The position numbers were made by a program, and so were the translations under genes. The notes beneath the pieces are model-generated. The model had not been told where the DNA came from. It saw only the letters and a list, made by a program, of their open reading frames with translations, and made no database searches. A stretch of 64,000 bases of DNA from Micromonospora sp. NBC_00389 (lineage in GTDB: Bacteria; Actinomycetota; Actinomycetes; Mycobacteriales; Micromonosporaceae): contig NZ_CP107947.1 in NCBI RefSeq assembly GCF_036059255.1, forward strand, positions 4,526,001 to 4,590,000. Direction: 5' to 3'. Positions within the stretch are counted from its first letter, which is position 1, and the number at the start of each line of letters is the position of its first letter. Shown piece after piece: positions 17,459 to 51,369 of this stretch.

Positions 17459-17517
17459 AACAGGGCGGGACGGCTGCCGTCGGCTGCGGCGCAGCAGTGA
17501 CAAGCAAGGAGAAGGCA

Positions 17518-17988
17518 ATGTCTGACAAGCTACGTATTGTGCTCGGCAGCGATGACGCCGGTGCGCGCTACAAGACGCAACTGACGGCGGACCTGCGGGC
17601 CGACGACCGGGTGAGCGAGGTCATCGACCTCGGCGTCGACCAGGACGAGGACACCCACTACCCGCACGTTGCCGCGGCGGCGGCCCGGCTCATCGCCGAG
17701 GGAAGGGCCGACCGGGCCCTGCTCATCTGCGGCACCGGCCTCGGAGTGGCGATCACCGCGAACAAGATCCCCGGAATCCGAGCAGTGACCGCCCACGACA
17801 GCTACTCCGTGGAGCGGGCGGTGCTGAGCAACAATGCGCAGGTGCTTTGCATGGGCGAGCGGGTGGTCGGCTTGGAGGTCGCCCGCCGGCTGGCGAAGGA
17901 GTGGCTGGGCTACCGCTTCGACCCCGGATCCGCCTCGGCAGAAAAGGTCGCCGCCATCAGCGAGTACGAGTCCGGAACCGAGGCGTGA
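17518..17988 (+). CDS. RpiB-family isomerase, probable D-erythrulose 4-phosphate isomerase
   Basis: This 156-residue member of the RpiB/LacAB sugar-phosphate isomerase family starts with [18 protein letters not shown]. It carries the catalytic cysteine in [20 protein letters not shown] and the [15 protein letters not shown] phosphate-binding segment. In Brucella the homologue EryI converts D-erythrulose 4-phosphate to D-erythrose 4-phosphate. The same reaction is the best fit here, since the kinases and dehydrogenase for erythrulose phosphate precede it. A typical ribose-5-phosphate isomerase role is the alternative. AAGGAGAAGG lies just upstream of the ATG. Confidence 0.85.
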
Positions 17989-18000
17989 AGGACGGCGATC

Positions 18001-18927: not shown

Positions 18928-18955
18928 GCACTGACGAGGAAGGGGTCTGTCGACC

Positions 18956-19735
18956 ATGCTCTGGATCGGTACGAGCTGGAAGATGAACAAGACCATCGGG
19001 GAGAGCCGCGACTACGCCCGGCGGCTGGCCGCGGCACTGGCCGAGGCGCCGCTGCCCCAGGGAGTGCAACCCTTCATCCTGCCGCCGCACACCAGTCTCG
19101 CGGCCGTCCGCGACCAGCTCGCCGGCGCGCCCGTGATGCTCGGCGCACAGAACGCGCACTGGGCAAAGGAGGGGGCTTGCACGGGCGAGATCTCCATGCG
19201 CATGGTCGCCGACGCGGGCGCCCAAGTCGTCGAAATGGGCCACTCCGAACGGCGGGAGCAGTTCGGGGAAACCGATGAGACCGTGGCGCGCAGGGCCCGC
19301 GCGGCCGTCGACCTGGGCCTGCTGCCGCTGATCTGCGTCGGTGAGCCGCGGTCGGTCCGCGCGGCCGGTCGCGCGGAGCGGTTCGTCACCGAGCAGGTAC
19401 GGGTGGCCCTGTCCCTGCTGCGTCCCGACGAGATCGGAGGAGCGCTGATCGCGTACGAGCCGGTGTGGGCCATCGGCGCTCGCGGAACACCTGCGACCCC
19501 CGAGCAGGTCGCGCCTGTCATGGACCTGATCGCCGAAGAGGTCCGCCGTCTCAGCGACGGAGGCGGATGCCACGCCCTGCTGTATGGGGGGGGCGTCGAC
19601 CTCGACAATGCCGCCCTCCTGCTGCGTGACACGCCCGCGGACGGGCTCTTCGTCGGCCGGGCCGCCTGGGGTGTCGACGGATTGCTGCAACTGCTCGCGA
19701 TCGGAAGTCGGCACGTCGAGGTCGCTGCCGCGTAG
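18956..19735 (+). CDS. Triosephosphate isomerase homologue, probable L-erythrulose 1-phosphate isomerase
   Basis: A 259-residue TIM barrel with all catalytic residues of the family: the lysine in GTSWKMNKT, histidine in EMGHSERR, glutamate in YEPVWAIG and the GGGV phosphate loop. Housekeeping TIM is normally encoded with gap and pgk, not in a sugar operon. In tetritol operons a TIM paralogue (EryH/TpiA2 in Brucella, LerI in mycobacteria) interconverts L-erythrulose 1-phosphate and D-erythrulose 4-phosphate. That fits the last missing step here. GAGGAAGGGG lies upstream of the ATG. This gene ends the operon, and an IS6 fragment begins 60 bases later. Confidence 0.85.
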   Translation: MLWIGTSWKMNKTIGESRDYARRLAAALAEAPLPQGVQPFILPPHTSLAAVRDQLAGAPVMLGAQNAHWAKEGACTGEISMRMVADAGAQVVEMGHSERREQFGETDETVARRARAAVDLGLLPLICVGEPRSVRAAGRAERFVTEQVRVALSLLRPDEIGGALIAYEPVWAIGARGTPATPEQVAPVMDLIAEEVRRLSDGGGCHALLYGGGVDLDNAALLLRDTPADGLFVGRAAWGVDGLLQLLAIGSRHVEVAAA

Positions 19736-31760: not shown

Positions 31761-32084
31761 GTGGCTACTTACCATGCTGGCGACGGCTGGGACGCATTGG
31801 GAGATCCCACCAGGCGCGCCATCGTGGCGTGCCTGGCCGAACGACCGCGGGCCGTCGGCGAGCTCGCCGAGGCGCTGCCGATCAGCCGGCCAGCGGTATC
31901 CCAGCACCTCAAGGTGCTCAAGGACGCCGGACTGGTCACTGACCGCGCTGCCGGCACCCGCCGGGTCTACCGGCTCAACCCGGCGGGCGTGGCCGCGCTG
32001 CGCGATCAGCTCGAGACGTACTGGAACCGCGCGCTGGACAGTTACCAGGACGTCGCCGAACAACCGACCGAGGAGAGGTCATGA
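31761..32084 (+). CDS. ArsR-family transcriptional regulator
   Basis: A 107-residue winged-helix regulator: WDALGDPTRRAIVACLAERP, then VGELAEALPISRPAVSQHLK as the recognition helix and TDRAAGTRRVYRLNPAG as the wing. The metal-binding ELCVC motif is absent, so it is not an arsenic or cadmium sensor. This subgroup is typically encoded with an AHSA1/SRPBCC protein. GTG 31761 gives the standard N-terminus, and the palindrome sits immediately before it. The stop overlaps the next ATG by four bases. Confidence 0.88.
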   Translation: MATYHAGDGWDALGDPTRRAIVACLAERPRAVGELAEALPISRPAVSQHLKVLKDAGLVTDRAAGTRRVYRLNPAGVAALRDQLETYWNRALDSYQDVAEQPTEERS

Positions 32085-32563
32085 CCCAAGCAGCTGAAGT
32101 CGTGGTGCGCCGGCACATCGTCGTCGAGGCACCGATCGAACGGGCCTTCACCGTGTTCACCGAGCGGTTCGGCGACTTCAAACCGCCGGAGCACAACCTC
32201 CTCGGTGCAGCTATTGCCGAGACCGTGTTCGAACCGAAGGTCGGCGGACACATCTACGACCGGAGCGTCGACGGCCGCGAGTGCCGCTGGGCGCGGGTGC
32301 TGGCCTACGAGCCACCGGACCGCGTCGTGTTCAGCTGGGACATCAGCCCGCAATGGCAGATCGAGACCGACCCGGACAACACCAGCGAGGTCGAGGTCAA
32401 GTTCATCGCCGAAACCCCAGACCGCACTCGGGTGGAACTGGAGCACCGCCACCTCGACCGGCACGGCCCCGGCTGGCAGGCCGTCAGCGACGGCGTCGCC
32501 CACGACCAGGGATGGCCGCTGTACCTCACCCGGTACGCCGCACTGTTCACCGAGGGCAGCTGA
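32081..32563 (+). CDS. SRPBCC (AHSA1-like) protein
   Basis: A 160-residue START/Bet v1-like helix-grip protein: VVRRHIVVEAPIERAFTVFT, then EPKVGGHIYDRSVDGRECRW, VLAYEPPDRVVFSWDI and FIAETPDRTRVELEHRHLDR. Such proteins bind small hydrophobic ligands and are commonly co-transcribed with an ArsR regulator, as here through an ATGA overlap. The pair probably forms a small ligand-responsive or stress-related unit. The ligand is unknown. Confidence 0.87.
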   Translation: MTQAAEVVVRRHIVVEAPIERAFTVFTERFGDFKPPEHNLLGAAIAETVFEPKVGGHIYDRSVDGRECRWARVLAYEPPDRVVFSWDISPQWQIETDPDNTSEVEVKFIAETPDRTRVELEHRHLDRHGPGWQAVSDGVAHDQGWPLYLTRYAALFTEGS

Positions 32564-33037: not shown

Positions 33038-33934
33038 TCAGGCTGCCTGGACCGCTGGTAGCAGGTGCGAACCGGTGGCTTCGAAGGCGGCGGGGCTGAG
33101 GTAGCCCAGGGTCGAGTGCCGGCGGCGGGTGTTGTACCACCCTTCGATGTACTCGAATATGGCCTGGCGGGCAGCTTGATGGGTGGGCCATGGCTGGCGG
33201 TGCAGGAGTTCTGTCTTGATGGTGGAGAAGAACGATTCGGCGACCGCGTTGTCCCAGCACTGCCCGCGCCGTCCGACGGACAGGCGGATGCCGTGACGTT
33301 GCGCGAGGCGGGCGTGCTGGGCACTGGTGTATTGACAGCCGCGATCCGAGTGGAAGACCAGCCCAGACTTGGGTCGGCGCCGCATGAGGGCGTCGGTGAG
33401 AGCGGCGTCGATCAGGTCGGTTTTGAGGTGGTCGGCGATGGCCCAGCCGACGATGCGGCGTGAGGCCAGGTCGATAACGGTGGCCAGGTAGAGCCAGCCC
33501 TGCCAGGTGTTGATGTAGGTGATGTCCCCGCACCAGCGGGAATCGACCGCAGCCGGATCGGTGCTGAAATCACGCCCGACCAGGTCAGGGCGTCTGCCGG
33601 CGTTCGGGTCCGGGATCGTAGTGGCCCGCCACCGGCGAGGGCTCTTACCGGCCAGTTCAGCGGCGCGCATCAGCCGGGCGACGCGTTTACGGCCGTGCCG
33701 CATGCCGGCGTCGGCGAGGTCGGCGTGGATCCGTGGCGCCCCGTAGGTGCCCTTCGACACCGCATGGACCTGGATGATCTTCTCGGTGAGCTGGGCATCA
33801 AGGCGCCCGCGAACAGACTGGACGCCGGATTTGCGCTGGTAGTAGGCGGACCTGGAGACCTCGAGCAGCTCACACGCACGCTTGACGTTGTGTTTGCCGG
33901 CTTGCTCCGCCTCGATGAACGGGTGCACGTTCAC
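33038..33934 (-). CDS. IS3-family transposase OrfB
   Basis: The 298-residue protein has the IS3 orfB features: an HTH_21 region (NVKRACELLEVSRSAYYQRK, then GTYGAPRIHADL) and the rve integrase core. The core has DDE residues in WCGDITYINT, FHSDRGCQYTS and NAVAESFFSTIKTEL. It ends with YNTRRRHSTLGYLSPAAFE. In an intact element it is translated as an OrfAB fusion by frameshifting, which is impossible now because IS30 separates the two. OrfB alone usually does not transpose. Confidence 0.92.
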   Translation of the reverse strand: MNVHPFIEAEQAGKHNVKRACELLEVSRSAYYQRKSGVQSVRGRLDAQLTEKIIQVHAVSKGTYGAPRIHADLADAGMRHGRKRVARLMRAAELAGKSPRRWRATTIPDPNAGRRPDLVGRDFSTDPAAVDSRWCGDITYINTWQGWLYLATVIDLASRRIVGWAIADHLKTDLIDAALTDALMRRRPKSGLVFHSDRGCQYTSAQHARLAQRHGIRLSVGRRGQCWDNAVAESFFSTIKTELLHRQPWPTHQAARQAIFEYIEGWYNTRRRHSTLGYLSPAAFEATGSHLLPAVQAA

Positions 33935-33961: not shown

Positions 33962-35163
33962 TTAGATTCAGGTGGTCAATGCAACGGTGCTGGTAGATGG
34001 GTGACTTGTGGCGCGAATGGGTCGGCCTGGCATGTCGGACGCGATGAAAGAGGACTTGTGGCGGCGGTGGCGCGACGGCGACTCCATCAGCGTGATCTCC
34101 CGGGCCTTGGACAAGCCGCCGGGCTCCGTTTTCACGGTGCTGAAGCACCATGGCGGCATCGCGCCGGCCGAGCGGGTACGTCGGGCGGACCGCTTGACCG
34201 CGGAAGAGAGGGAATCGATCTCTCGCGGTCTTGAGGCCGGTGCCTCGCTGCGTTCGATCGCTGTGTCGATCGGCCGTCCATCATCGACGGTGAGCCGAGA
34301 GGTGGCCCGCAACGGCGGCCGAGGGAAATACCGGGCAGTCGCTGCCGAGCAACGTGCTCAGGAGCAGACCCGCCGCCCGAAACCGTCCGCCCTGCAGGAG
34401 AACCCGGTGCTTCGCCAGCTGGTAATCGAGCTGCTGGAGAACGAGTGGTCCCCGGAGCAGATCGTCGGCCACCTGCGGCTGACCCACGCCGACAACTCGT
34501 TGATGAGGATCAGCCACGAGAGCATCTACCGTGCGATCTACACGACCCGGTGGAAAATGATTCCGCGAGAGCTGTGCACCAAGCTGCGCACGGGCCGTCC
34601 CATCCGAAAAAACAAGCGCAACACCGTCAAAGGCCAGTGGCGCTCCCAGATCACCGGAGCACGGCCGATCGAGGAACGACCGGACGCCGCCGACGCACGG
34701 ACCGAACTGGGCCACCTCGAGGGCGATCTCATCGTCGGCGCCAAGAACAGCCAGGTCGCGACGCTGGTCGACCGAAGATCTCGCTACCTGACCATGGTGG
34801 CCCTGCCCAGCCGGCACACCACGACTGTCATCCCCGCTCTTCAGCAGGCGTTCTCGCTGATGGATCCCCGCCTACTCAGCACCTTGACCTGGGATCGCGG
34901 CATGGAACTCGCCGGCCACCGGCTGCTGACCGAGGCCACCGGCGTCGACGTCTTCTTCGCCGCACCGCGCAGCCCCTGGCAGCGCGGCACGAACGAGAAC
35001 ACGAACAAGCTGATCCGCCAATACCTACCGAAAGGCACCGATCTCGGCCTACACGGCCAAGCCGACCTCGACGCCCTGGCCGCACGACTGAACAACCGGC
35101 CCCGCAAATGCCTCGGTTACCGCACCCCAGCCCAGTGTGTTGCCTTGACTCTTTGAACCTAAG
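33962..35163 (+). mobile_element. IS30-family element inserted in the IS3 element
   Basis: The element is 1202 bases long. Its ends are TTAGATTCAGGTGGTCAATG (left) and, inverted, CTTAGGTTCAAAGAGTCAAG (right). The trinucleotide GTC lies directly on both sides (33959-33961 and 35164-35166), a 3-bp target duplication in the size range usual for IS30. Removing the element and one GTC restores a continuous orfA tail (ILKRAT-AFFAKETR-stop), which proves that it inserted after the IS3 element. Confidence 0.92.
34008..35156 (+). CDS. IS30-family transposase
   Basis: The 382-residue transposase is intact. An N-terminal HTH (SISVISRALDKPPGSVFTVL) and the HTH_38 helix region (RSIAVSIGRPSSTVSREVAR with NGG) are followed by the catalytic core. 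The core has GHLEGDLIVGAKNSQVATLV, TWDRGMELAGH and PWQRGTNENTNKLIRQYLPK (DDE), then LNNRPRKCLGYRTPAQ. GTG or ATG starts near 34008-34032 are possible. It fills the whole element and its stop lies inside the right terminal repeat. It is probably capable of transposition. Confidence 0.92.
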   Translation: MARMGRPGMSDAMKEDLWRRWRDGDSISVISRALDKPPGSVFTVLKHHGGIAPAERVRRADRLTAEERESISRGLEAGASLRSIAVSIGRPSSTVSREVARNGGRGKYRAVAAEQRAQEQTRRPKPSALQENPVLRQLVIELLENEWSPEQIVGHLRLTHADNSLMRISHESIYRAIYTTRWKMIPRELCTKLRTGRPIRKNKRNTVKGQWRSQITGARPIEERPDAADARTELGHLEGDLIVGAKNSQVATLVDRRSRYLTMVALPSRHTTTVIPALQQAFSLMDPRLLSTLTWDRGMELAGHRLLTEATGVDVFFAAPRSPWQRGTNENTNKLIRQYLPKGTDLGLHGQADLDALAARLNNRPRKCLGYRTPAQCVALTL

Positions 35164-37607: not shown

Positions 37608-39260
37608 ATGACCGCTGTCGAACCAGCCGCCACACCTTTCGCGGCCGCCTCAGCGCCGGTGAAGCGGGACCGGAATGAGATCTTCGTCGAGTACACCAAG
37701 TCGATCTGTCCGGTGTGCAAGGTGGTCGTGGACGCGCAGGTCAACATCCGGGACGGCGGGGTGTACCTGCGTAAGTGCTGTCGCGAGCACGGCCAGTTCG
37801 AGGCTCTGGTGTACGGCGACGCGCAGATGTACGTGGACTCTGCCAGGTTCAACAAGCCGGGCACGATCCCGCTGGCCTTCCAGACCGAGGTCAAGGAGGG
37901 CTGCCCGTCCGACTGCGGGCTGTGTCCGGAGCACAAGCAGCACGCCTGCCTTGGCATCATCGAGGTCAACACCGGCTGCAACCTGGACTGCCCGATCTGC
38001 TTCGCCGACTCCGGCCACCAGCCCGATGGCTACTCCATCAGCCTCGAGCAGTGCGAACGGATGCTCGACGCGTTCGTGGCCGCCGAGGGTGAGGCCGAGG
38101 TGGTGATGTTCTCGGGCGGCGAACCCACCATCCACAAGCAGGTCCTGGAGTTCATCGACGCCGCGCAGGTCCGCCCGATCAAGGCGGTCAACCTCAACAC
38201 CAACGGTATCCGGCTGGCCAGCGACAAACGCTTCGTTGACGCTCTGGGCGAGCGCAACCGGCCCGGCCGGGCGGTCAACATCTACCTGCAGTTCGACGGG
38301 TTTGATGAGCGCACCCACCGCGAGATCCGCGGCCGGGACCTGCGCGAGATCAAACAGCGCGCCCTGGACAACTGTGCCGCGGCCGGTCTGACCGTCACCC
38401 TGGTCGCTGCCGTGGAGCGCGGCCTCAACGAGCACGAGCTCGGCGCGGTCATCGAGTACGGGCTGACCCATCCAGCGGTGCGCAGCGTGTCGTTCCAGCC
38501 GGTCACCCACTCCGGCCGGCACGTCGAGTTCGACCCACTGACCCGGTTGACCAACTCCGACATCATCCACCGGATCGTCGCCCAGCTACCCGGCTGGTTC
38601 CGCGCCAGCGACTTCTTTCCCGTACCCTGCTGCTTCCCGACCTGCCGGTCGATCACGTACCTGCTCACCGACGGCGCTCCCGGCAGCCCGGACTTCGGCG
38701 TGGTACCGATCCCCAGGTTGCTCAACGTCGCCGACTACCTTGACTACGTCTCCAACCGAGTGGTGCCGGACGACGCCATCCGCGAGGTCTTGGAGAAGCT
38801 GTGGTCCGCCTCGGCGTTCATGGGCACCGACACCACCAACGAGAAACTCGCCGCCGCGGCGGCGGCCCTCGATTGCGCCGACGCCTGCGGGGTCAACCTG
38901 CCCGAGGCGACCGCGAATCTCACCGACCGAGCCTTCATGATCGTCATTCAGGATTTCCAGGATCCGTACACGCTCAATGTCAAGCAGCTGATGAAGTGCT
39001 GCGTCGAGGAGATCACCCCCGACGGCCGGCTGATCCCGTTCTGCGCCTACAACTCCGTCGGCTACCGAGAACAGGTCCGCGAGCACATGTCCGGCGTCCC
39101 GGTCGCCGACGTCGTCCCCAACGCCGTCGGATTGCAGCCGATGCTGAGCAACTCACCGTACGGGTCGAAGATCGCCCGCCACACCACCACCAACGCCGCG
39201 GGCAATGATCAACGGGGCGTGGCGCGTGACACCACCAACGTGGGGAGGCGCATCCGGTGA
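37608..39260 (+). CDS. Radical SAM protein resembling tetraether lipid synthase (Tes-like)
   Basis: The 550-residue enzyme has the radical SAM motif Cys124-x3-Cys128-x2-Cys131 (TGCNLDCPICFADSG) and a GGEP motif (VVMFSGGEPT). Ahead of it lie a rubredoxin-like set (CPVCKVV at 34-37, KCCREHG at 57-61) and a second cysteine set (EGCPSDCGLCPEHKQHAC, 99-114). The C-terminus has KCCVEEITPDGRLIPFCAYN, another cluster-type site. This layout matches the MJ0619/Tes group, where archaeal members join lipid chains through C-C bonds. Bacterial homologues are uncharacterised, so substrate is unknown. ATG 37608 lies eight bases after AAGGAG. The stop overlaps the next gene by four bases. Confidence 0.85.
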   Translation: MTAVEPAATPFAAASAPVKRDRNEIFVEYTKSICPVCKVVVDAQVNIRDGGVYLRKCCREHGQFEALVYGDAQMYVDSARFNKPGTIPLAFQTEVKEGCPSDCGLCPEHKQHACLGIIEVNTGCNLDCPICFADSGHQPDGYSISLEQCERMLDAFVAAEGEAEVVMFSGGEPTIHKQVLEFIDAAQVRPIKAVNLNTNGIRLASDKRFVDALGERNRPGRAVNIYLQFDGFDERTHREIRGRDLREIKQRALDNCAAAGLTVTLVAAVERGLNEHELGAVIEYGLTHPAVRSVSFQPVTHSGRHVEFDPLTRLTNSDIIHRIVAQLPGWFRASDFFPVPCCFPTCRSITYLLTDGAPGSPDFGVVPIPRLLNVADYLDYVSNRVVPDDAIREVLEKLWSASAFMGTDTTNEKLAAAAAALDCADACGVNLPEATANLTDRAFMIVIQDFQDPYTLNVKQLMKCCVEEITPDGRLIPFCAYNSVGYREQVREHMSGVPVADVVPNAVGLQPMLSNSPYGSKIARHTTTNAAGNDQRGVARDTTNVGRRIR

Positions 39261-40066
39261 ACCGGACAATTGAACCCGCCGCGGCGGCGCAGGCCAAGGC
39301 GTGCTGTGCAGCCACCTACGGCTCCGACGTGGCGGCGCTGCTGCTGGACGACTCCTACCACCCCGGTGGCCTGGCGCTGACCCGCCGGCTGGCCGATCGG
39401 CTCGCCCTGCGCGCCGGCGAGCGGGTCCTGGACGTGGCCAGCGGTCGGGGCACCACGGCGCTGACGCTCGCGGCCGAGTGCGGTGTCGATGTCACCGGTG
39501 TCGAGCTTTCCGGTGCCAATGTCGCGCTCGCCACCGGCGCGGCGCAGTCCGCCGGCCTCGGCAACCAGGCCCGGTTCCGGGTAGGCGACGCCGAGCGGCT
39601 CCCCGTCGACGCGCAGTCGGTCGACGCGGTCGTGTGCGAGTGCGCGTTCTGCACCTTCCCCGACAAGCCCACAGCCGCCAGCGAACTGACCCGGGTGCTC
39701 CGCCCGGGCGGCCGGGTCGGGATCACCGACGTCACCGTTGAGCCCGACCGGCTCCCGCCCGAGCTGACCGGGATGGGGGCGTGGATCGCGTGCGTCGCCG
39801 ACGCGCGCCCCCTCGACGAGTACGCCGCCCTGCTGACCGATGCGGGGCTGACAGTCACCCACACCGAACGCCACGACGACGCGATCGCCGCGATGATCGA
39901 TCAGATCGAGGCCCGCCTCACCGTCGTGCGGATGACTGCCCGAGCGCGGGCCGATGCCCTCGGCGTGGACTTCGCACGCGCCCCGGCGGTGCTGGCCGCC
40001 GCCCGCGCCGCGGTCGCCGACGGTGTTCTCGGCTACGCGCTGCTGACGGCCATAAAACCGCGTTGA
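39257..40066 (+). CDS. Class I SAM-dependent methyltransferase coupled to the radical SAM gene
   Basis: The 269-residue protein has the SAM-binding motif VLDVASGRGTTALTLA, an acidic residue in TGVELSGANV, and motif II/III segments VDAVVCECAFCTFPDKPTAA and VLRPGGRVGITDVT. It resembles ArsM- and UbiE-type enzymes. Its distinctive N-terminus AKACCAATYGSDVAALLLDD has a Cys-Cys pair, and another CxxxC-like pair (CECAFC) sits in the catalytic region, so thiol or metalloid chemistry is possible. GTG 39257 overlaps the radical SAM stop (GTGA), which argues that the two work in one pathway. Confidence 0.85.
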   Translation: MNRTIEPAAAAQAKACCAATYGSDVAALLLDDSYHPGGLALTRRLADRLALRAGERVLDVASGRGTTALTLAAECGVDVTGVELSGANVALATGAAQSAGLGNQARFRVGDAERLPVDAQSVDAVVCECAFCTFPDKPTAASELTRVLRPGGRVGITDVTVEPDRLPPELTGMGAWIACVADARPLDEYAALLTDAGLTVTHTERHDDAIAAMIDQIEARLTVVRMTARARADALGVDFARAPAVLAAARAAVADGVLGYALLTAIKPR

Positions 40067-40111
40067 CGCGAAACCGGTGCTCCGGCACCGGACAGGAGAT
40101 TGGAGACGATC

Positions 40112-40753
40112 ATGGCAGGACCGCTGCGCGCGAGCTGGACCCTGGCGGCCATGACCGCGGCAGCGGCCGGCGCGGTCGGGTACCTGGGGCTGGTCACCGG
40201 CTGGCTCACCCTCGATCTCGGCATCGGCCGGCGGACACGTGCGCTCGGGCCGCAGGTGTTCGAGATCGCCGCGCCCCGTGAGCTGGTCTTCGACGTGATC
40301 GCCCAGCCGTACCTCGGCCGGGCCACCCGGGCCCAGCAGGAGAAGATCCAGGTGCTGGAACGCGGTGACGGGATGGTCCTGGCCGCCCACCGTACGGCGG
40401 TCGGCCGTGGTCTGGTCACCCAGACGATCGAGACGGTTGCCTTCACCCGCCCCAACACCGTCGACTTCCGCCTCGTACGCGGCCCCGTGCCGCACGTACG
40501 GGAACGCTTCACCCTCACCGACGACGGCGGCCACACCCGACTGGAGTACACCGGCGAGATGGGCACCGATGGCTGGGCGCTGGGTGCCGGGTGGGCGGCG
40601 GTTGTCGCACGGCGATGGGAGGCGACGGTCGCCGACTCGCTCGCCACGGTGAAGTCCGAGGCCGAACGCCGGCACGCGCTGCGGCGCACAACCTCCCCGG
40701 GGGACCGCTCCGGCACGGCCACCAAAGACCCCACCGCCGGCCAGACGGAATGA
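40112..40753 (+). CDS. Membrane-anchored SRPBCC protein of the radical SAM cluster
   Basis: The 213-residue product has one N-terminal membrane segment (LAAMTAAAAGAVGYLGLVTG). A START/polyketide-cyclase-like domain follows: QVFEIAAPRELVFDVIAQPY, VLERGDGMVLAAHRTAVGRG, then RFTLTDDGGHTRLEYTGEMG. A polar tail ends it. Such a domain held at the membrane could present a hydrophobic or lipid substrate, which suits a Tes-like partner. ATG 40112 is preferred because GGAGA lies five bases upstream. It is 45 bases after the methyltransferase gene on the same strand. Confidence 0.8.
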   Translation: MAGPLRASWTLAAMTAAAAGAVGYLGLVTGWLTLDLGIGRRTRALGPQVFEIAAPRELVFDVIAQPYLGRATRAQQEKIQVLERGDGMVLAAHRTAVGRGLVTQTIETVAFTRPNTVDFRLVRGPVPHVRERFTLTDDGGHTRLEYTGEMGTDGWALGAGWAAVVARRWEATVADSLATVKSEAERRHALRRTTSPGDRSGTATKDPTAGQTE

Positions 40754-40895
40754 CCATCCTGCGGTGGACGCCGCCACGCCGCCCACCAGTGACCTTCCCG
40801 TCGCCGGGTAACCGGTCCGGCACGCCTGCTTGGCGTCCGGATGGCCCGGAGTGCCGCCCGTGGAACGAGTGACGGCGGACCAGGACAAACCGTGG

Positions 40896-41090
40896 TGTAT
40901 GGCTGAAGTCGACATCCTCTGCGACCTGTCACCGGCCGAGATGAACCGCCATCGCCGCCACCGCCCCCTCAAAGACCTATCCTGGAGGGGTGGACATGCA
41001 GCCGGCCGACCAGGGCCATCGGCTGCCGCAGGGCCAGGTCGTCTACCCGCACACCGACTGCTGCCGTTCGGCCTGCCGGGGAGGAAGGAC
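40896..41090 (+). pseudogene. Possible Crp/Fnr-family regulator N-terminal fragment
   Basis: The frame around 40896-40980 reads MAEVDILCDLSPAEMNRHRR, very like the first helix of Crp/Fnr regulators. The cyclic-nucleotide-binding beta-roll does not follow. A frame-shifted GQVVYPHTD near 41035-41060 may be the next family block. The call is tentative. If correct, the cluster once had its own regulator. The bases 40754-40895 show nothing. Confidence 0.35.
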
Positions 41091-41092
41091 GG

Positions 41093-41425
41093 ATGAGCGT
41101 GATCGAGGTGTTGTACTTCGACGGCTGCCCGAACCACGAGGGCTTCGTGCCGCATCTGCGGGCGCTGCTCGACACCGCTGGGGTGGATGATCCGATCCAC
41201 GAGCGCGCGGTGGAGACTGACGTCGACGCCCAGGCACACGGTTTCCTCGGATCGCCGACGCTGCGAATCGACGGCGTGGACGTCGACACAACGGCCGCGC
41301 AACGCACGGATTACGGCCTGCAGTGCCGGCTCTACCCCACCGAGGATGGCGTTTGCGGCACCCCGCCCGATCAGTGGATCCTGGCCGCCCTGCAGCGCCG
41401 GCAGTCCGCCTTGGCGGCCGGCTGA
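41093..41425 (+). CDS. Thioredoxin-like DF-family protein
   Basis: The 110-residue protein starts IEVLYFDGCPNHEGFVPHLR, carries a cis-proline-type GSPTLRIDGVDVDT segment and ends with cysteines in LQCRLYPTEDGVCGTPP. This is the pattern of the small DF-family (seleno)proteins, thioredoxin-fold proteins often found near SAM methyltransferases and mercury or arsenic genes. Only one cysteine is present in the first motif (GCPNH), so it may form mixed disulphides or bind a metal or thiol ligand. GAGGAAGGA lies just upstream of ATG 41093. It is likely the last gene of the radical SAM cluster, though 340 bases separate them. Confidence 0.75.
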   Translation: MSVIEVLYFDGCPNHEGFVPHLRALLDTAGVDDPIHERAVETDVDAQAHGFLGSPTLRIDGVDVDTTAAQRTDYGLQCRLYPTEDGVCGTPPDQWILAALQRRQSALAAG

Positions 41426-41462
41426 TGGTTGCCCGGATCGATCTAACGCGGCTGCGTGCGCT

Positions 41463-41545
41463 GCTCGACGCGGGCGCCCAGGCGATCTGATCTCGGCCCC
41501 CACCCGGGTACAACGCGTTCATCGATCCGGCAACGCAACAGCGCC
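41463..41545 (+). mobile_element. IS6 end scar
   Basis: The bases encode the last residues of an IS6 transposase (GAQAI, stop at 41488-41490), followed by the terminal repeat (GATCCGGCAACGCAACAG). They match, inverted, 19798-19870, including the non-coding part between stop and repeat (CGCGTTCATCGATCCGG). Only this 80-base end remains. The opposite orientation relative to the fragment at 19798 is notable. Confidence 0.75.
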
Positions 41546-42524: not shown

Positions 42525-42961
42525 TCACAAGTCGCGCGCGAGCGCGGTGAGCATCCCGTGGACGACCGGTTCGGCGTGGCGTATGCAGTCGCAGTCTGCC
42601 CCGTGGGTGTCGCGGTGCCAGGCGATGAGGTACTGCAGAGCGAGCTGGTTGACCTGGTAGTCGTGTTCGGCCTTGACCCGGTCGGTGTCGGCCTGGCGGT
42701 TCTGGCTGAGCAGGATCAGCGGGGCGGCGTAGGCGGCCTGGGTGGAGAAGAGCAGGTTGAGCAGGATGAACGGGTAGGGATCCCATCGGTACAGCACGGC
42801 GACGACGTTGATGGCTATCCAGACCGCGACGACAGCGGTCTGGACGAGATGAACCGCCAGGACCCGAACACCGAGGTGACCGAGTCGGCCAGGCGTTGTC
42901 CGGACGTGCGGTGATCGTGCCGGTACTGGTCAGCGGGGTGTCGGTGGTGATGCGGGGTCAT
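42525..42961 (-). pseudogene. DUF1003 membrane protein, frameshifted
   Basis: The minus-strand gene starts at ATG 42961, reads RLADSVTSVFGSWRFI, then shifts frame near 42855. It continues VQTAVVAVWIAINVVAVLYR and DPYPFILLNLLFSTQAAYAA, followed by PLILLSQNRQADTDRVKAEH, to a stop at 42525. These are the two membrane helices and the conserved DPYPFILLNL motif of DUF1003 proteins. One base change would restore it. It overlaps the end of the broken nitroreductase gene upstream. Confidence 0.8.
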
Positions 42962-44022
42962 GTCGGCCGCCACCCTTCGGCCCGGAGGGCCTGTCGTCTT
43001 CAGCCCGGCCGGGACGAGATGCCTTCGGCGTCGGCCGGTCGATGCGCTGCTGGGCGGGCAGTCGCGGCGCGTGCGGCGGCCCGACGTCGTCGGTGTCGAG
43101 CATCCCCAGTCGCAGCACCAGGTACGGATGACCGAGGTCGGCCGCCAGCCGCCGCATCGACTGGCGGGTGCCGGCCATCTCGACGGCGGCGCTGAGCGGC
43201 AGGACGGACACCCCGAGCTCGACCGCGGTGAGCCAGGCCGACGACAGGGCTTCACCCGCGCGCAGCCAGTCCACTGGCTGGTCATTGGGACCGTAGAGCA
43301 CCGCGTACACGGCAATGCGGTCGTGCCCGGTGCTCACCGGTAGGTCGCCGTGGTGGCCGAAGTCGCGGCCGGGCACGGTCGTCTGCGGAGCACGGAGGGG
43401 AATCGTGTCGTCGGGAACACCGGTGCCCGCTGGTCGGGTGCCACCGGTCCAGCACGCCAGCTCCGCCTGCCACGCCGGATCGGCGGTCTCCGCCTGTTGG
43501 GCGTGACTGGCGGCGGCGGCGAGGTCCAGCAGTTGGTCGGGTCGCAGGATGTGCAGCCACGCTCCTTCGGCCTGCACCGCGGCGGTGATGGCGCGCAGGT
43601 CGTCGGGTCCGACCGCCGGGCCGGTGACGGGACGGCGATCGGTGTGGCGCAGCCGGATGGTGTGCGTACGGCGGACCGCCCGCAGTTCGACCGGCGCCCG
43701 CCCGACGACGCGCAGGCGGGCGAGATGGCCGGGGTCGGTCGGATCCGGCATCCGGGTCACGATGGCGCCAGCCTTGCGCGGCCAGGGCGATCCGGGCGTG
43801 CTGCAGAGCGGCCCCGCAGCTCAGCGTCGCGAGCCGGCTGTCAGGGTCCGTGACGGCGAGCGCCCGGGCGCAGTCGGCGAAGAGGTCCAACCGGGTCCCG
43901 CCCACCCGCCACCGCCACGGCTGGGTGTTGTGGATCGACGGCGCGTAGCCCGCCACGGTTGCTGCTCCGACCAGCGCCTGGATCACGGCCCGAGCGTCGG
44001 TCGGTTGAGTCTGGGTCGGCAC
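42930..44022 (-). pseudogene. Acg-type nitroreductase, frameshifted
   Basis: A minus-strand gene of about 363 codons starts with GTG at 44022, with GAAGGGA upstream. It encodes the Acg/DosR-regulon nitroreductase pattern: AGYAPSIHNTQPWRWRVGGT, then LATLSCGAALQHARIALAAQ. A frameshift near 43770 leads into TRMPDPTDPGHLARLRVVGR, GEALSSAWLTAVELGVSVLP and RRLAADLGHPYLVLRLGM. The shift removes the C-terminal flavin half from the N-terminal half. In mycobacteria such genes belong to dormancy regulons. A proteobacteria-like housekeeping nitroreductase is less likely because of the NTQPW motif. Confidence 0.82.
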
Positions 44023-44260
44023 GACAGCGTCCCTTCGTGGATCTCTATGTCGTCTGGCGATGCCGGTCACCCACCTCGCTCGGCTCATAACGGGCGCGGC
44101 CCGAGGCCCAGCGGTTGGCGGCATCGGTTCATCCCGCCCGGCGCGACCGGCGAGGCCTGCGGCAGGAGTGGTCCGCGAGGCAGCGCCGCAATTGCTTCCC
44201 AGAACGGGATCGGGCCGTCATCGGGGCCTTAACCGAGGGCGTGTGCACCAGCGGTGGACT

Positions 44261-45478: not shown

Positions 45479-46633
45479 GTGAGCACTGCAAAGTGCTTGC
45501 CTGTGCGTCTACTGCCGTTCCTCGCTGCCCTTGTTGCCATGCTTGTCGTCGCCGCTCCCGCGCAGGCGCACGTCCGTGCGACCTCGGTCGCGGTCGACCT
45601 GCGAAGCCAGGGCAGCGGCGTCGTGGCTGTCGTAGATGTGGAGTACGACGTCCTCGCCCGGCTGTTGAGTCTCGACGGTGTCCTGAGCCCGGACGCGGTC
45701 GGCGTGGACGGCGCGGCCGCCGAGGTGCCGACCGAGGTGCGGCGCAGGTCGTTGGAGGCGCACGCGAGCGACGTGGCGGCGTACGTCGGCGAGCGGCTGC
45801 GGCTGAGCCGCGGCTCGATCGGGTGCACCGCTGAGGACGACGCCCGCGTCGAACTCGCCGACTCCGGCGCGGTGCAGGTCGCGCTCGCCTACGGCTGCGC
45901 GGCGTCCGGGGCGCTCACCGTCCGCAGCGACATCTTCCGCGTCTCCGACGGCGTTGTCGACGACACCACCACTATGGTGGCCTACGACATCGACGGTCGC
46001 CGCGGTTCGACGTTGCTCGACTCCGCCCGCACCAGCGTCACGGTGGGGCACACCGCTCTGCTCAGCGACATCCCGCGGTTCGTCCGGCTCGGGGCGGAGC
46101 ACCTGCTCTTCGGGCTCGACCACGTGTTGTTCCTGCTGGCGCTGTTGCTGGGCGCGAAGCGGCTGCGCGACGTCGTCGAGGTCGCCACGGCGTTCACGGT
46201 CGCGCACTCGGTGACCCTGGTGCTGGCCGCGGTCGGCTGGGTCAGCGTGCCCGGGTGGATCGTCGAGCCGCTCATCGCGCTGTCGATCGCGTTCGTCGCG
46301 GTCGACAATCTGCTCTCGCCGAGGACGAGCCACCGGCTGCCCGTGGTCTTCGGCTTCGGGCTGCTGCACGGGCTCGGCTTCGCGGGCGCGCTCAGCGTCG
46401 ACGGGCCGCTGTCGGCCTCGACGCTGGCCGACCTGGTCTCCTTCAACGTCGGCATCGAACTCGTTCAGTTGGCGATCATCGCGCTCTCCTTCCCGGCGCT
46501 GCTGTTCCTGCGCAGGGCCGTGACCAAGCCGGTCGCCGCTCGCGCTCTCACGCTCGGCACCGTCGCGGCGACCGTCGCCGTCGCTGGTGCCGGTCTGGTC
46601 TGGTTCGTCGAACGTTCGCCGCTCCTGACCTGA
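45479..46633 (+). CDS. HupE/UreJ-family membrane protein with an extracytoplasmic domain
   Basis: The 384-residue protein has a signal peptide ending in APAQA, an extracytoplasmic domain of about 170 residues, and a C-terminal HupE/UreJ_2 membrane domain of six to seven helices. Conserved histidines are EHLLFGLDHVLFLLALLL, FTVAHSVTLVLA and GLLHGLGFAGAL, which probably bind nickel or another metal ion. HupE-type proteins import nickel for hydrogenase or urease, but no such enzymes are nearby. The start is a GTG. It precedes, by 35 bases, the gene for a large secreted phosphatase/propeller protein and may be co-transcribed with it. Confidence 0.85.
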   Translation: MSTAKCLPVRLLPFLAALVAMLVVAAPAQAHVRATSVAVDLRSQGSGVVAVVDVEYDVLARLLSLDGVLSPDAVGVDGAAAEVPTEVRRRSLEAHASDVAAYVGERLRLSRGSIGCTAEDDARVELADSGAVQVALAYGCAASGALTVRSDIFRVSDGVVDDTTTMVAYDIDGRRGSTLLDSARTSVTVGHTALLSDIPRFVRLGAEHLLFGLDHVLFLLALLLGAKRLRDVVEVATAFTVAHSVTLVLAAVGWVSVPGWIVEPLIALSIAFVAVDNLLSPRTSHRLPVVFGFGLLHGLGFAGALSVDGPLSASTLADLVSFNVGIELVQLAIIALSFPALLFLRRAVTKPVAARALTLGTVAATVAVAGAGLVWFVERSPLLT

Positions 46634-46668
46634 CACTCATCTCCCGCCCCCCATCCCGAAGGATCCCG

Positions 46669-49600
46669 ATGTCCGCGTTCACCTGGACACGCGCGCGCCT
46701 GCGCGTCGTCCTGTACACCACTACGCTGGGGCTCGCCGCCAGCGTCGTGGCGGGCCCGCTTGCGTCGTACGCGGCGTACGCTATCGACCCGCCGGAGGCC
46801 ACCGTCAGTGGCGTCGTGTACGTCGACGCCAACGGCGACGGCGTTCGGAACGACGCCGAGGCCGGTCTGGCCGGCGTCCGCGTCTCCGACGGCGTGGTCG
46901 CCACCACGACCGCCGCCGACGGCTCCTACTCGCTGACGATCTCCACCGACCGTCGCAAGACGGACATCGTGTGGGCCGGCCAGCCGCGGGGCTACCGGTT
47001 CGGCCTGGACCAGTACAAGGAGCCGAGGTTCTGGGCCAACCTCGGCCAGCTCGCCGACGACGCCACGCCGACCGCGGACTTCGCGCTCGTCCGTGACGGC
47101 CTCTCCGACGGCGACACCTTCTCCTGGGCCAACGTCGCCGACCCGCACGTCAACGCACAGCTGCCCGACCAGATCCGCGAGATTAACTCCACGGGCACCG
47201 ACCTGCGCTTCATCGCGGTCAGCGGTGACCTCACCAACGACGCCAGCCAGGGGCAGTTCGACACGTATCGTCGCGGCACCCAGCAGTCGGCCGTCGGCGT
47301 GTGGCCGGCCGTCGGCAACCACGAGTACGCGAGCGGCTCGGCGTACGCGGACAAGATCGACAACTATCGCAAGAACGTCGGTCCGGAGTGGTACTCGTTC
47401 AACTACGGCAACCGGCACTTCGTGGTGCTCGAGAACAACGGCTCGGCGCCGTTCGACGAGGAGCTGGACTGGCTCAAGGACGACCTCGCCGCGAGCGTTC
47501 CGCTCGACGACGACCCGACCAACGACATCGAGGTCGTCGTCCTCACCCACCAGCCGATGAACGTCCCGTTCGGCTCGCCGTCGACGTACGACGCCTTCGG
47601 TGACGTGCTCGAGCACTACAAGGCGCAGCTGATCCTGGTCGGCCACGAGCACTCCAACCACGTCGAGAACCATTCGGCGTTCGCCTCGACCGCCAAGCAC
47701 ATCCAGACCGTGTCGAGCTCCTACACGATCGACAACGCGCCCCGCGGCTTCCGCTACATCCACATGGCAGGTCCGGGCTTCGACAACCCGTTCCGGATGT
47801 ACGGCGAGAACGAGCGCCTCACCATCGTCAGCCCCGCGCCCGGCTCGAAGGTGCCAGCCGCGAAGTTTCCGGGCATCCAGATCAACGCCTACGACACCGG
47901 CGACGAGGTCGTCTCGGCGCGCTACCGGATCGCCGGCGACAAGAACTGGATGCCGCTGCACCACAGCGGCGAGTTCACCTGGCAGAGCAACCTGCCCGAC
48001 AGCCTGCAGACGGTCGGTGAGCACAGCATCGACGTGAAGGTGGTAGACGCGGCGGGCAAGACCTGGACCAAGTCGGCGGACTTCACCCTCACCGACGAGC
48101 CGGCGCTCGAGCCGGTCGCCAGCGGTGACTGGGACCAGCACCACGGCAACGAGGCCCACTCCGGTGTCGCGCCGGCGCAGGAGGCCGGCCGCCGCCTGGC
48201 CTGGAGCTTCCGCACCGACGGCAGCTTCCTCACCGGGTCGCCGGTCATCCACGACGGTGTCGTCTACGCGGGCACCCGCGACGAGAACGGCGACGGCAAC
48301 AGCCGGATCCACGCCGTCCAGCTCAAGAACGGCAAGGAGCTGTGGAACCTCGAGGTGCCGCAGTCGATCCACGGCAGCCTCGCCTACGGCGACGGCCTGA
48401 TCTTCGCGCCGACCCTCGGCTCGGAGCTCTACGCCGTGGACGCGGTGACCGGCGAGCTGCGCTGGAAGGCCGTGCCCGAGCAGGCGCCGGCCCCGAACAA
48501 CCAGCGCGCCTACGGCTACTACTCGCCGGCCGTCTCCGGCCACACCGTGCTCTGGCCCTACCAGACCCGTTTTGGCATTGGCAGCCAGGGCGTCCTAAAG
48601 GCGCTCGACACCAAGACCGGTGAGCAGATCTGGGCCTCGCCGATGTCCGGCAACCAGATGAGCGACGGCACCCCGGCCGTCATGAACGGCACCGTATACA
48701 TCGGCAACCAGACCGCCGACCGCGTGCTCGCCTACGACCTGGCCACGGGCGCCCGCAAGTGGACCGGTGCCGAGTCGCTCGGCAGCTGGCAGGACGGCGT
48801 ACCGACCGCGGCCGAGGGCAAGGTCTTCATCGGCGCCAACAACGGCATCGCCGCCCGTGACGCCAAGACCGGCGCGACGCTGTGGACCTACCGGAGCGCG
48901 CGCTCCTCGCTCGTCTCGAGCGGCTCGACCCCGAGCGCCGCGGCCGTCAAGGACGGCGTCGTCTACATGGGCTTCCCGAGCGGCGCCGTCGTCGCCCTCG
49001 ACGCCCAGACCGGCAACGTCTTCTGGGAGCGGGTGCTGCCCGGCGACGTCTACCACGGTGGCGTCATGTCCAGCCCGGTCGTGGCCGGCGACACGCTCTT
49101 CGTCGGCGCCAACAACGGCAAGTTCTACGCCCTGGCCACCGACACCGGCCAGCTCCTGTGGAGCCACGAGGTCGGCACCTGGGTGGGCGCCGGCCCGGCC
49201 GTCAGCGGCAACACCGTCGTGACGGGCGCCTGGGACGGCAACCTCTACGCCTACGTGCCGGGCGGCGAGTCCGCGCAGCGCTGGGCGACCGTGACCGGCA
49301 CGGTTAGCGACCCGCAGACGGGCGCTCCGATCGCCGGCGCGAAGGTCACCGCCATCGCCGCCGGCCAGGACACCGCGGTGACCAGCACCGACGCCCAGGG
49401 CCACTACCGGATCGGCCTGCCGGGGTCGACCTGGACCGTCACGGCGGCCAAGCGCGGCCTGATCGCCGACGACCGCTCGGCGGCCAGCGTCACGGTCGGC
49501 ACCACCGGCAACGCGACGGCCGACCTCAAGCTGCTCAAGGTGACCCACCCGGTCGCCGGCAAGTCGACGTACGCGCCGGACTACGGCAACGGCAGCACGC

Positions 49601-51369
49601 GTACGGACGTCGTCACGGGCAAGGAGTACTACTACCTGGCCAACGACAAGATCCGGGCGTCCGTGACGCCGTACGCCGCCGGCAACAACGGCGTCGGCGG
49701 TCTGGGCCAGGGCGCGCTGTCGGACCTCATGCTCAACGACGCCAACGGCGCCGAAACCCTCGACTGGGGCGAGATGCTGCTGCGTCCGAGCCTCACGCCG
49801 CCCGATTCGTGGGACCGGCCGAACGACCAGCTCGACCTGCCCGACCTCGCGGTCGACGGCGCTGCCGTGGTCGGCAACGGTCAGTACCGGGCGAACCCGG
49901 CCATCAAGGCGCAGGTCCGCTACCAGACCCTGCCCGACGCTCCGATCGTGAAGATGACGGTCAAGCTGACCAACACCGGCACGACGGGCTACCAGGGCTA
50001 CTTCAACTACATGATCGACCCCGACAGCTCGCTCGACAACGGCCGGATCCCCGGGTTCAGCGGCATCAACCCGGGTCTGAAGACCTCGGGCTGGACCGGG
50101 AACTACGTCTACGTCGGTGCTGACGCGGCCACCACGAACGGCCAGGCCGCCCACGGTCTCGCGTGGGCACTGGACATGCCGACCGCGGTCGGCGCGTACG
50201 GCTACGTCGAGGGTCTCTACTACGACGCCACGATGGCGCCCGGTGCGACCAAGCAGTTCAGCTTCTACCACCTGACCGACTACGCGACCGCCGGTGGCGA
50301 CCCCACCCGCAACGTCGCGAAGTGGGCCGACGAGATCGACCTGCACGACGCGGCCGTCCCGGACGCCGCTCGCGCGGCCGGCACGATCACCGCGGGCGGC
50401 GCCGCCGTCTCCGGTGCCCGGGTCGCCCTCGAGCAGGCCGGCACGGTGGTCGCGACCACGAGCACCGACGCCCAGGGCAAGTACCTCGTCAAGGCCCCGA
50501 CCGGTCAGTACGACGTCCGGGTGTCCAAGCTGGGCTATCAGACGGCCACCGGCACGGTCACCGTGCCGGCGGTGGGCAGCGGCGTCGCCGACGTCGCGCT
50601 GAGCCCGGTCACGGTCGAGGCGAGCTACGGCAAGCAGATCGGCTCGGGTCTGGTCGAGGCGGGCTACGGCGACGTCATGCTCGAGAACGACAAGCTCTCG
50701 ATGGCGATCGCCGATGCCTACAACGACTCGCAGCTCTCCGGTGGCACCCGCGGCAAGCCGGTCGACATCGCCGTCCGCGGTATGGCCGACCAGTTCGACT
50801 GGATCAACCTGCCCTACGTCTCGGCGACCCAGCCGACCGGCGATAGCGCGTGGGACAACCGGTCGGTGGCGGCGACCGACGTCCAGATCGTCCAGGCGAC
50901 CGGCGACAAGGCCGTCGTCCGGGTGTCCGGGCCGGTCAAGGGCTTCACTGGTCTGACGGCGACGACGACGTACACGCTGAAGCCGGGCGACAACTTCGCC
51001 ACGGTCTCGACGGAGCTGAGCAACTCCGGCTCGGCTCCGCTCAACGTGTGGACCGGTGACGCGATGGACCACGACGCGGCCGGCCAGGCCAGTGTCATCC
51101 CGGGCGCCGGCATCGTGACGCCGGGTGCGACGGCGGCGTACGCCCCGACCAAGCCGTACATCGGCATGACCGGGACCGACCCGCAGGTCTTCGGTCTCGT
51201 CTACGGTACGCCGGCCAGCGCCTTCGACGTCTACGCCGCGGGCAACTGGGTGATGAGTCGGTTCAACGTCGACGTGCCGGCGGGTGGCTCGTACACCCTC
51301 ACTCACAAGCTCGTCGTCACCCCGGGCACCGACGCGGTGGGCATCCTCGACGGCGTCCCCGCGCCGTAA
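46669..51369 (+). CDS. Giant secreted protein: metallophosphatase plus PQQ-type beta-propeller plus carboxypeptidase-like repeats
   Basis: The 1566-residue protein begins with a signal peptide. An SdrD/Cna-B-like domain follows at about 45-140 (VYVDANGDGVRNDAEAGLAG). A calcineurin-like phosphoesterase lies at about 150-390, with metal ligands in VADPHVN, SGDLTND, GNHEY, LTHQP and VGHEHSNH. The next part is a PQQ-repeat beta-propeller (GSPVIHDGVVYAGTRDENGD, many W-x-G-D/N repeats) to about 870. Two carboxypeptidase regulatory-like domains and long beta-rich C-terminal regions complete it. There is no sortase motif. It probably hydrolyses phosphoesters outside the cell. ATG 46669 has CGAAGGA upstream. 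A terminator follows. Confidence 0.87.
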   Translation: MSAFTWTRARLRVVLYTTTLGLAASVVAGPLASYAAYAIDPPEATVSGVVYVDANGDGVRNDAEAGLAGVRVSDGVVATTTAADGSYSLTISTDRRKTDIVWAGQPRGYRFGLDQYKEPRFWANLGQLADDATPTADFALVRDGLSDGDTFSWANVADPHVNAQLPDQIREINSTGTDLRFIAVSGDLTNDASQGQFDTYRRGTQQSAVGVWPAVGNHEYASGSAYADKIDNYRKNVGPEWYSFNYGNRHFVVLENNGSAPFDEELDWLKDDLAASVPLDDDPTNDIEVVVLTHQPMNVPFGSPSTYDAFGDVLEHYKAQLILVGHEHSNHVENHSAFASTAKHIQTVSSSYTIDNAPRGFRYIHMAGPGFDNPFRMYGENERLTIVSPAPGSKVPAAKFPGIQINAYDTGDEVVSARYRIAGDKNWMPLHHSGEFTWQSNLPDSLQTVGEHSIDVKVVDAAGKTWTKSADFTLTDEPALEPVASGDWDQHHGNEAHSGVAPAQEAGRRLAWSFRTDGSFLTGSPVIHDGVVYAGTRDENGDGNSRIHAVQLKNGKELWNLEVPQSIHGSLAYGDGLIFAPTLGSELYAVDAVTGELRWKAVPEQAPAPNNQRAYGYYSPAVSGHTVLWPYQTRFGIGSQGVLKALDTKTGEQIWASPMSGNQMSDGTPAVMNGTVYIGNQTADRVLAYDLATGARKWTGAESLGSWQDGVPTAAEGKVFIGANNGIAARDAKTGATLWTYRSARSSLVSSGSTPSAAAVKDGVVYMGFPSGAVVALDAQTGNVFWERVLPGDVYHGGVMSSPVVAGDTLFVGANNGKFYALATDTGQLLWSHEVGTWVGAGPAVSGNTVVTGAWDGNLYAYVPGGESAQRWATVTGTVSDPQTGAPIAGAKVTAIAAGQDTAVTSTDAQGHYRIGLPGSTWTVTAAKRGLIADDRSAASVTVGTTGNATADLKLLKVTHPVAGKSTYAPDYGNGSTRTDVVTGKEYYYLANDKIRASVTPYAAGNNGVGGLGQGALSDLMLNDANGAETLDWGEMLLRPSLTPPDSWDRPNDQLDLPDLAVDGAAVVGNGQYRANPAIKAQVRYQTLPDAPIVKMTVKLTNTGTTGYQGYFNYMIDPDSSLDNGRIPGFSGINPGLKTSGWTGNYVYVGADAATTNGQAAHGLAWALDMPTAVGAYGYVEGLYYDATMAPGATKQFSFYHLTDYATAGGDPTRNVAKWADEIDLHDAAVPDAARAAGTITAGGAAVSGARVALEQAGTVVATTSTDAQGKYLVKAPTGQYDVRVSKLGYQTATGTVTVPAVGSGVADVALSPVTVEASYGKQIGSGLVEAGYGDVMLENDKLSMAIADAYNDSQLSGGTRGKPVDIAVRGMADQFDWINLPYVSATQPTGDSAWDNRSVAATDVQIVQATGDKAVVRVSGPVKGFTGLTATTTYTLKPGDNFATVSTELSNSGSAPLNVWTGDAMDHDAAGQASVIPGAGIVTPGATAAYAPTKPYIGMTGTDPQVFGLVYGTPASAFDVYAAGNWVMSRFNVDVPAGGSYTLTHKLVVTPGTDAVGILDGVPAP

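Follow-up and report, generated by a model that had tools for sequence, protein, structure and literature searches.

The window analysed here, a stretch of 64,000 nucleotides from Micromonospora sp. NBC_00389 (contig NZ_CP107947.1), contains a small gene cluster encoding a radical S-adenosylmethionine (SAM) protein, a class I methyltransferase, a membrane-anchored SRPBCC (START-type) protein and a thioredoxin-like protein of the DF family (Table 1). The host genome consists of a single contig of 7.87 Mb and carries one copy of the radical SAM gene; the closest named proteins come from Micromonospora and related genera. All four open reading frames named in an earlier, sequence-only reading were present. 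That reading had described a four-gene cluster; the first three genes do lie close together, with 45 nt between the methyltransferase and SRPBCC genes, but the DF gene follows after a gap of 339 nt and lies outside the tight operon. The radical SAM frame is backed by a GC content at third codon positions of 0.90. For the other three genes, a crude GC-frame picker favoured a 764-residue minus-strand frame (39209-41503); we take the three genes as real because of their family matches and conserved relatives. Two transposase-type genes (33038-33934 and 34008-35156) lie upstream, and the surroundings of the cluster may thus be mobile or decaying.

The predicted fold of the radical SAM protein agrees overall with that of Tes (GDGT-MAS, MJ0619; structures 7tol and 7tom; family NF045702), and the cofactor set is shared as well, as had been suggested: every column of the rubredoxin-type site (C3H), the N-terminal auxiliary cluster (C3H), the radical SAM core (C3) and the C-terminal auxiliary cluster (C3) agrees with 7tol. 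Of the cysteine set 34/37/57 listed earlier, C34 and C37 stood, but the third rubredoxin ligand is C58, which is invariant in 71 sequences, and not the adjoining C57, a cysteine in about 1% of 92. Likewise, the four cysteine sets already described are present, but C341/C342/C346, within the stretch PVPCCFPTC, and C423/C427 had been overlooked. Five cysteines (C114, C341, C342, C423 and C427) are extra compared to Tes. Among the 92 rows carrying the PCC motif, the conservation of each is 99-100%, with C341 and C342 at 100% by construction because this motif defines the class. None of the five is a cysteine in 7tol, and a thaumarchaeal Tes (L157) has one of them; the C423 and C427 columns hold no cysteine in either. 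The C346 column aligns with a cysteine of 7tol.

Judged by its sequence, the window protein is distinct from Tes within one fold family. It scored 317.3 bits against the Tes family, below the curated cut-off of 450, and 328.2 bits against TrsS (NF045646), its best-scoring NCBIfam family, below the cut-off of 490; membership of either family was therefore rejected. The column of Met439 of Tes (upstream of 38997..39044) holds Gln in the window protein and that of Tyr459 holds Glu; across branches, the Met439 column is Gln, Lys, Arg, His, Glu, Thr, Val or Met. Met439 and Tyr459 occur together in 3 of 129 aligned rows, namely 7tol, L157 and the second homologue of a Terriglobia metagenome-assembled genome (MAG; L160), and a tree of these rows splits the three from the other 126 (Shimodaira-Hasegawa support 0.997). 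The protein did not group firmly with any characterised non-lipid family, one of the two outcomes that would have counted against the earlier reading. Two thaumarchaeal MAGs (L107, L122) encode a Tes above the cut-off (690 and 698 bits) together with a PCC-type protein adjoining a methyltransferase. The present type co-occurs with true Tes in MAGs G922 and G923 and with a Met/Tyr-type homologue in MAG G926; binning errors may underlie any of these co-occurrences. In the MAGs with two Tes-fold proteins (L156 and L157 with L166 and L167; L160 with L083), one was a true or Met/Tyr-type Tes and the other a PCC-type protein beside a methyltransferase. Frame filtering kept a true Tes (L156) and several more short loci out of the 7tol alignment and the 129-row set.

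The name of the TrsS family, (seleno)protein, admits cysteine forms, and the window frame has no internal TGA. No TrsS member above the cut-off was found in 298 genomes of the order or in 188 genomes of the phylum of genome G921. Selenocysteine was unsupported in two loci (L012, L061), the TGA of L012 being consistent with an ordinary gene end. In the literature, TrsS appeared as a single table entry (excerpt of PMC13188914), and among the titles listed from the open-licence PubMed Central literature none describes the radical SAM-methyltransferase cluster.

The fixed partner of the radical SAM protein is the METHYLTRANSFERASE. We counted 105 distinct radical SAM loci, 56 orthologs (at least 63% identity) and 49 more distant ones. 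The methyltransferase gene was found in all 52 ortholog loci having at least 1.2 kb of downstream sequence and in 37 of the 46 distant loci with enough downstream sequence; three distant loci without it end within 1.2 kb of the radical SAM gene. The remaining nine (L068, L070, L071, L074, L084, L097, L109, L113, L137) belong to the same Tes-like family, but lack the methyltransferase and are accompanied by an Lgt-like gene at a distance of up to about 4 kb; both genes were found together in no locus. L003 and L005 are also of this sister type. The Lgt-like gene is so annotated in L003 and was named by sequence in the others, and simple patterns found the usual HGGL-type motif of Lgt in none of the nine Lgt-like cluster members. 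Among 67 loci examined, 38 show an overlap of exactly 4 nt between the methyltransferase start and the radical SAM stop (start codons assigned by rule; in L141 the radical SAM frame was read as 4 residues, making its distance meaningless). In Mycobacterium persicum (L104) and M. gastri (L115), which are close relatives of each other, the two proteins are naturally fused in frames of 778 and 798 residues. Conservation of the pair is supported by the ortholog loci, the 4-nt overlaps and the fused frames.

The methyltransferase (AlphaFold2 model, predicted local distance difference test (pLDDT) score 93) scored 123.5 bits against its best family, DVU_1556 (NF045667; cut-off 155). TrsS and DVU_1556, families that probably partner each other elsewhere, are the best NCBIfam families for the two window proteins, but the pair remains below both cut-offs. 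Against arsenite methyltransferase (ArsM/AS3MT, NF008823) the score was 104.1 bits, below the cut-off of 263. Common to ArsM and the window protein are an N-terminal CC and two cysteines 50 residues apart: Cys129 and Cys179 match cysteines of three annotated ArsM proteins and were equated with the As-binding C174 and C224 of CmArsM via spacing and motif only. The sole exception at Cys179 (L129) runs off its locus. In contrast, the third, GCGNP-type cysteine of ArsM, which we take to be the equivalent of the As-binding C72 of CmArsM, has no counterpart, the region reading HPGG, and there is little ars context.

Table 1 Features of the radical SAM-methyltransferase locus (positions within the 64,000-nucleotide window).
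Feature	Position	Strand	Basis
Tes-fold radical SAM enzyme, 550 aa	37608..39260	+	families: Radical_SAM and HMPTM zinc ribbon
Rubredoxin-type site C34, C37, C58, H61	37707..37790	+	aligns with C9/C12/C33/H36 of 7tol
N-terminal auxiliary cluster motif C99, C103, C106, H109	37902..37934	+	aligns with C73/C77/C80/His of 7tol
Radical SAM CX3CX2C: C124, C128, C131	37977..38000	+	alignment with 7tol, conservation
Family-specific motif PCCFPTC: C341, C342, C346	38628..38645	+	C341/C342 in 92/92 PCC-class rows
Family-specific cysteines C423, C427	38874..38888	+	Cys in 0.99 and 1.00 of 92 rows
C-terminal auxiliary cluster C464, C465, C479	38997..39044	+	aligns with CC and C of 7tol
ArsM-related class I methyltransferase, 269 aa	39257..40066	+	GTG start; 4 nt overlap with radical SAM stop; Methyltransf_11
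Methyltransferase Cys129 codon	39641..39643	+	Cys in 91/91 relatives; aligns with ArsM Cys, 3/3 ArsM
Methyltransferase Cys179 codon	39791..39793	+	Cys in 90/91 relatives; aligns with second ArsM Cys, 3/3 ArsM
Membrane-anchored SRPBCC (START-type) protein, 213 aa	40112..40753	+	Polyketide_cyc2; one N-terminal hydrophobic stretch
Probable remnant of Crp/Fnr-type regulator gene	40878..41006	+	16/43 residues identical to L044 regulator, E 0.001
DF family thioredoxin-like protein, 110 aa	41093..41425	+	DF_fam_seleno NF049942

Neighbouring genes were compared with 40 control stretches of 19.5 kb, taken at round coordinates from 10 actinobacterial carrier genomes and leaving other phyla uncovered. 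The query families were chosen from the same loci, with the window and the query-supplying loci counted, and many loci are close relatives (Streptomyces), so that the counts are not independent. The SRPBCC protein matched Polyketide_cyc2 (PF10604) with 36.2 bits (E 9e-9; above the gathering score of 27.4) and was itself the only match at E 1e-4 in its own genome. A second START-type protein (AHSA1 family, 32081-32563) near the transposase genes was missed by this query. SRPBCC genes occurred in 21 of the 56 ortholog loci and in none of the controls, and in two Chloroflexi loci (L066, L079) the gene lies between those for the radical SAM protein and the methyltransferase. Among the 298 genomes of the order, nine had a strong radical SAM match, eight an SRPBCC match and three both, compared to 0.24 expected (hypergeometric P 0.001). 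The SRPBCC protein is thus supported as a functional neighbour, albeit not a universal one. The DF protein scored 105.9 bits against NF049942 (cut-off 70) and had one further, weak match in its own genome; its gene is near 8 of the 56 ortholog radical SAM genes, again with no match in controls. All four genes were found in 4 of the 56 ortholog loci (the window, L055, L101 and L134). The idea that they form a fixed unit was therefore rejected, whereas the pair is conserved; the second outcome counting against the earlier reading, a lack of joint conservation of the four genes, was thus seen in part. Between the SRPBCC and DF genes, the sequence matches the Crp/Fnr-type regulator of L044 (37% over 43 residues), and the gap probably holds the start of a decayed gene of this kind. 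The putative remnant lies 3.27 kb from the radical SAM start; in seven Streptomyces loci the regulator is found at 3.1-3.2 kb.

Across the ortholog loci, two themes mark the neighbourhood: proteins for hydrophobic ligands or phospholipids, and thiol redox at the membrane. Genes for DUF427 occurred in 28 loci, for Crp and disulfide reductase in 22 each, for MauE and a small CC membrane protein in 17 each, for CcdA in 16, for CDP-alcohol phosphatidyltransferase in 14, for a MerR-type regulator in 12, for DUF3179 in 9 and for a membrane protein without family match ('Rv1678l') in 7; VKOR was found in none of the 56 and in 5 of the 49 distant loci. In controls, the disulfide reductase query alone matched (2/40). 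Representatives of Crp, DUF427, phosphatidyltransferase, MauE, DUF3179, VKOR and reductase were identified by family matches. For the CC membrane protein, CcdA, Lgt and MerR, the queries took their names from the sequence, from inspection by eye or from a relative's annotation instead of a family scan. Arsenic genes were rare (ArsH and an ars-region permease 0/56, ArsC and ArsR 2/56 each; Acr3 and ArsB were not queried), and an ArsR-type regulator cluster named by eye occurred in 4 loci; an arsenic-resistance context was thus unsupported. Among 47 reductases in the vicinity of the loci, five had a MerA-type CC at their end. Disulfide reductases of this kind lie within about 11 kb of the radical SAM gene in L046, L100, L126, L128 and L141, and some copies may therefore be near mercury genes. 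Six reductases directly upstream of the radical SAM gene (L069, L077, L080, L088, L092, L114) lack this CC, and the two of them that were scored fell below the MerA cut-off. L200, L207 and L209 were merged as duplicates of L136, L101 and L124. Outside the count of 105 are loci of other types (L003, L005, L006, L008) or distant types (L058-L061, L063), L048, which has the methyltransferase and SRPBCC genes, L050 and L053, the same loci as L092 and L128, and L211-L215, with SRPBCC but no radical SAM gene.

The radical SAM type is sporadic in distribution. Strong matches were found in 9 of 298 genomes of the order, and matches at E <1e-100 in 14 of 394 of the class; at E <1e-30, which includes distant types, 13 of 296 genomes of the phylum had matches. 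Among the best 80 of at least 584 matches, named carriers include Streptomyces, Amycolatopsis, Pseudonocardia, Mycobacterium, Ktedonobacter, Bradyrhizobium, Acidobacteria and Nitrosotalea, and many carriers are MAGs. The methyltransferase-linked type comprises most Chloroflexota, Acidobacteria and actinobacterial members examined, and two thaumarchaeal ones. A Mycolicibacterium vanbaalenii plasmid carries the pair beside CcdA and a set resembling Rv1678-Rv1681, and a distant form is found on two plasmids of haloarchaea, next to DUF547 and redoxin-type genes.

Building on the predicted fold, the ligand conservation, the separation from Tes, the physical coupling to the methyltransferase and the neighbour enrichment established here, we tentatively favour a two-step pathway. 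Going by fold and ligands, the radical SAM protein would strip a lipid-like chain of a hydrogen atom at an unactivated carbon, and the C-terminal auxiliary iron-sulfur cluster would catch the carbon radical, like in Tes. The outcome, at or close to this cluster, would probably be a carbon-heteroatom bond (to sulfur or a metalloid) and not the joining of two chains, because of the Gln at the Met439 column, the replaced Tyr459 and the five extra cysteines. Unusual cluster ligands can occur in enzymes that form C-S bonds with cluster sulfur, as biotin synthase (Arg) and lipoyl synthase (Ser) illustrate (excerpt of PMC9433317). In the second step, suggested by fusion, overlap and cysteine conservation, the ArsM-type methyltransferase would grip the soft atom via Cys129 and Cys179 and methylate it. 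The SRPBCC protein would bind or present the hydrophobic intermediate, and thiol redox would come from the DF protein together with neighbouring CcdA, MauE and pyridine-nucleotide disulfide reductase, and in some distant loci VKOR. The best-known relatives of the Lgt-like protein act on a thiol; an Lgt-like gene replacing the methyltransferase in the sister type would therefore fit a thiol intermediate, as a pattern confined to nine loci. The lipid pathway of the sequence-only reading has gained plausibility from the phosphatidyltransferase and Lgt-like neighbours, yet remains conjectural.

Several points weigh against this two-step pathway. Its lipid-like substrate is putative. The SRPBCC gene is absent from 35 of the 56 ortholog loci, some of them cut by contig ends, and within the order five SRPBCC carriers lack the radical SAM protein and six radical SAM carriers lack SRPBCC. 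C423 and C427 fall within or border a stretch of low prediction confidence (pLDDT <50 at residues 423-426). As the M439A variant of Tes retains activity (excerpt of PMC9433317), loss of Met439 does not exclude Tes chemistry. Finally, in a structure search of the PDB, the methyltransferase fold was nearest to small-molecule methyltransferases (AtmM, MitM, RebM-type) and also resembled cyclopropane fatty acid and geranyl diphosphate methyltransferases; no ArsM was among the 50 matches listed in either case, where absence proves nothing.

These nearest folds, and the presence of a strong match in just 9 of 298 order genomes, would also suit a rather doubtful alternative, in which the radical SAM protein rearranges a non-lipid hydrophobic small molecule or cofactor and the methyltransferase carries out an ordinary O-, N- or C-methylation. 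However, the near-invariant methyltransferase cysteines are then hard to account for, and lipids are suggested by the phosphatidyltransferase neighbours and by the Lgt-like ones of the sister type. The metalloid or thiol alternative of the earlier reading gains from the ArsM cysteine pair kept by the methyltransferase, but not from the queried ars genes, which were not enriched. In its organometalloid form, which we regard as unlikely, the radical SAM protein would create a carbon-arsenic bond or one like it, leaving a trivalent organic product for the methyltransferase to methylate. The pair is kept while HPGG replaces the GCGNP-type cysteine, and two cysteines suffice for methylarsenite but not for arsenite (excerpt of PMC3877260). 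ArsL and ArsM of arsinothricin biosynthesis set a working precedent of a radical SAM step followed by ArsM-type methylation, although ArsL has 428 residues and is likened here by description and not by sequence (excerpt of PMC8552651). Against this stand the rarity of the queried arsenic genes and the fact that nothing links the Tes fold with a metalloid. Quite unlikely, in our view, is a bacterial Tes that couples lipid chains by C-C bonds into membrane-spanning lipids, with the methyltransferase methylating elsewhere. The shared fold and cofactor ligands, the lipid-type neighbours and the active M439A variant agree with it, and bacterial homologues have been proposed for branched glycerol dialkyl glycerol tetraethers (excerpt of PMC8941075), but the score, the rarity of Met439 with Tyr459, the extra cysteines and the occurrence alongside true or Met/Tyr-type Tes (binning errors being possible) speak against it. 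We consider it highly improbable that the locus belongs to an island for mercury or heavy-metal resistance whose redox neighbours serve as Mer functions: the enriched MerR-type regulators, CC membrane proteins and disulfide reductases and the five reductases with a MerA-type CC are set against upstream reductases without CC or below the MerA cut-off and different neighbours in archaeal and Chloroflexi members.

Elsewhere in the window, genes of dihydroxyacetone-kinase, alcohol dehydrogenase and triosephosphate isomerase type lie downstream of an ABC transporter gene (12722-19735); as a cluster they may serve the catabolism of a polyol or tetritol, a substrate named as a guess. A single frame of 1704 residues (46255-51369) combines metallophosphoesterase, PQQ-type beta-propeller and carboxypeptidase-regulatory domains. 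The region 42525-44124 holds one short frame of DUF1003 and two frames that overlap, match nothing in Pfam and, by eye, look like a broken nitroreductase-type gene.

Membrane-spanning lipids serve as climate proxies. Bacterial Tes homologues have been proposed to make them (excerpt of PMC8941075) and have been counted in Chloroflexota and other phyla, where they are stated to be unconfirmed (excerpt of PMC11868695). The methyltransferase-linked Tes-fold type probably represents a separate, uncharacterised chemistry on a greasy molecule, and such genes should therefore not count as evidence for membrane-spanning lipids. A simple test would separate the two: Met439 and Tyr459, no PCC motif and no adjacent methyltransferase would indicate Tes. 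If the proposed chemistry is true, one fold would choose between carbon-carbon and carbon-heteroatom bond formation. In a bolder version, which we consider improbable, a Tes-derived radical SAM protein would install sulfur (or arsenic or selenium) on the inert chain end of a membrane lipid and its partner would alkylate it, by ArsM-type methylation or, in the sister branch, Lgt-type diacylglyceryl transfer; such a path to thio- or arsenolipids, spread across bacteria and archaea, would be new. The surprising part would be the chemistry, while the separation from Tes is already useful.

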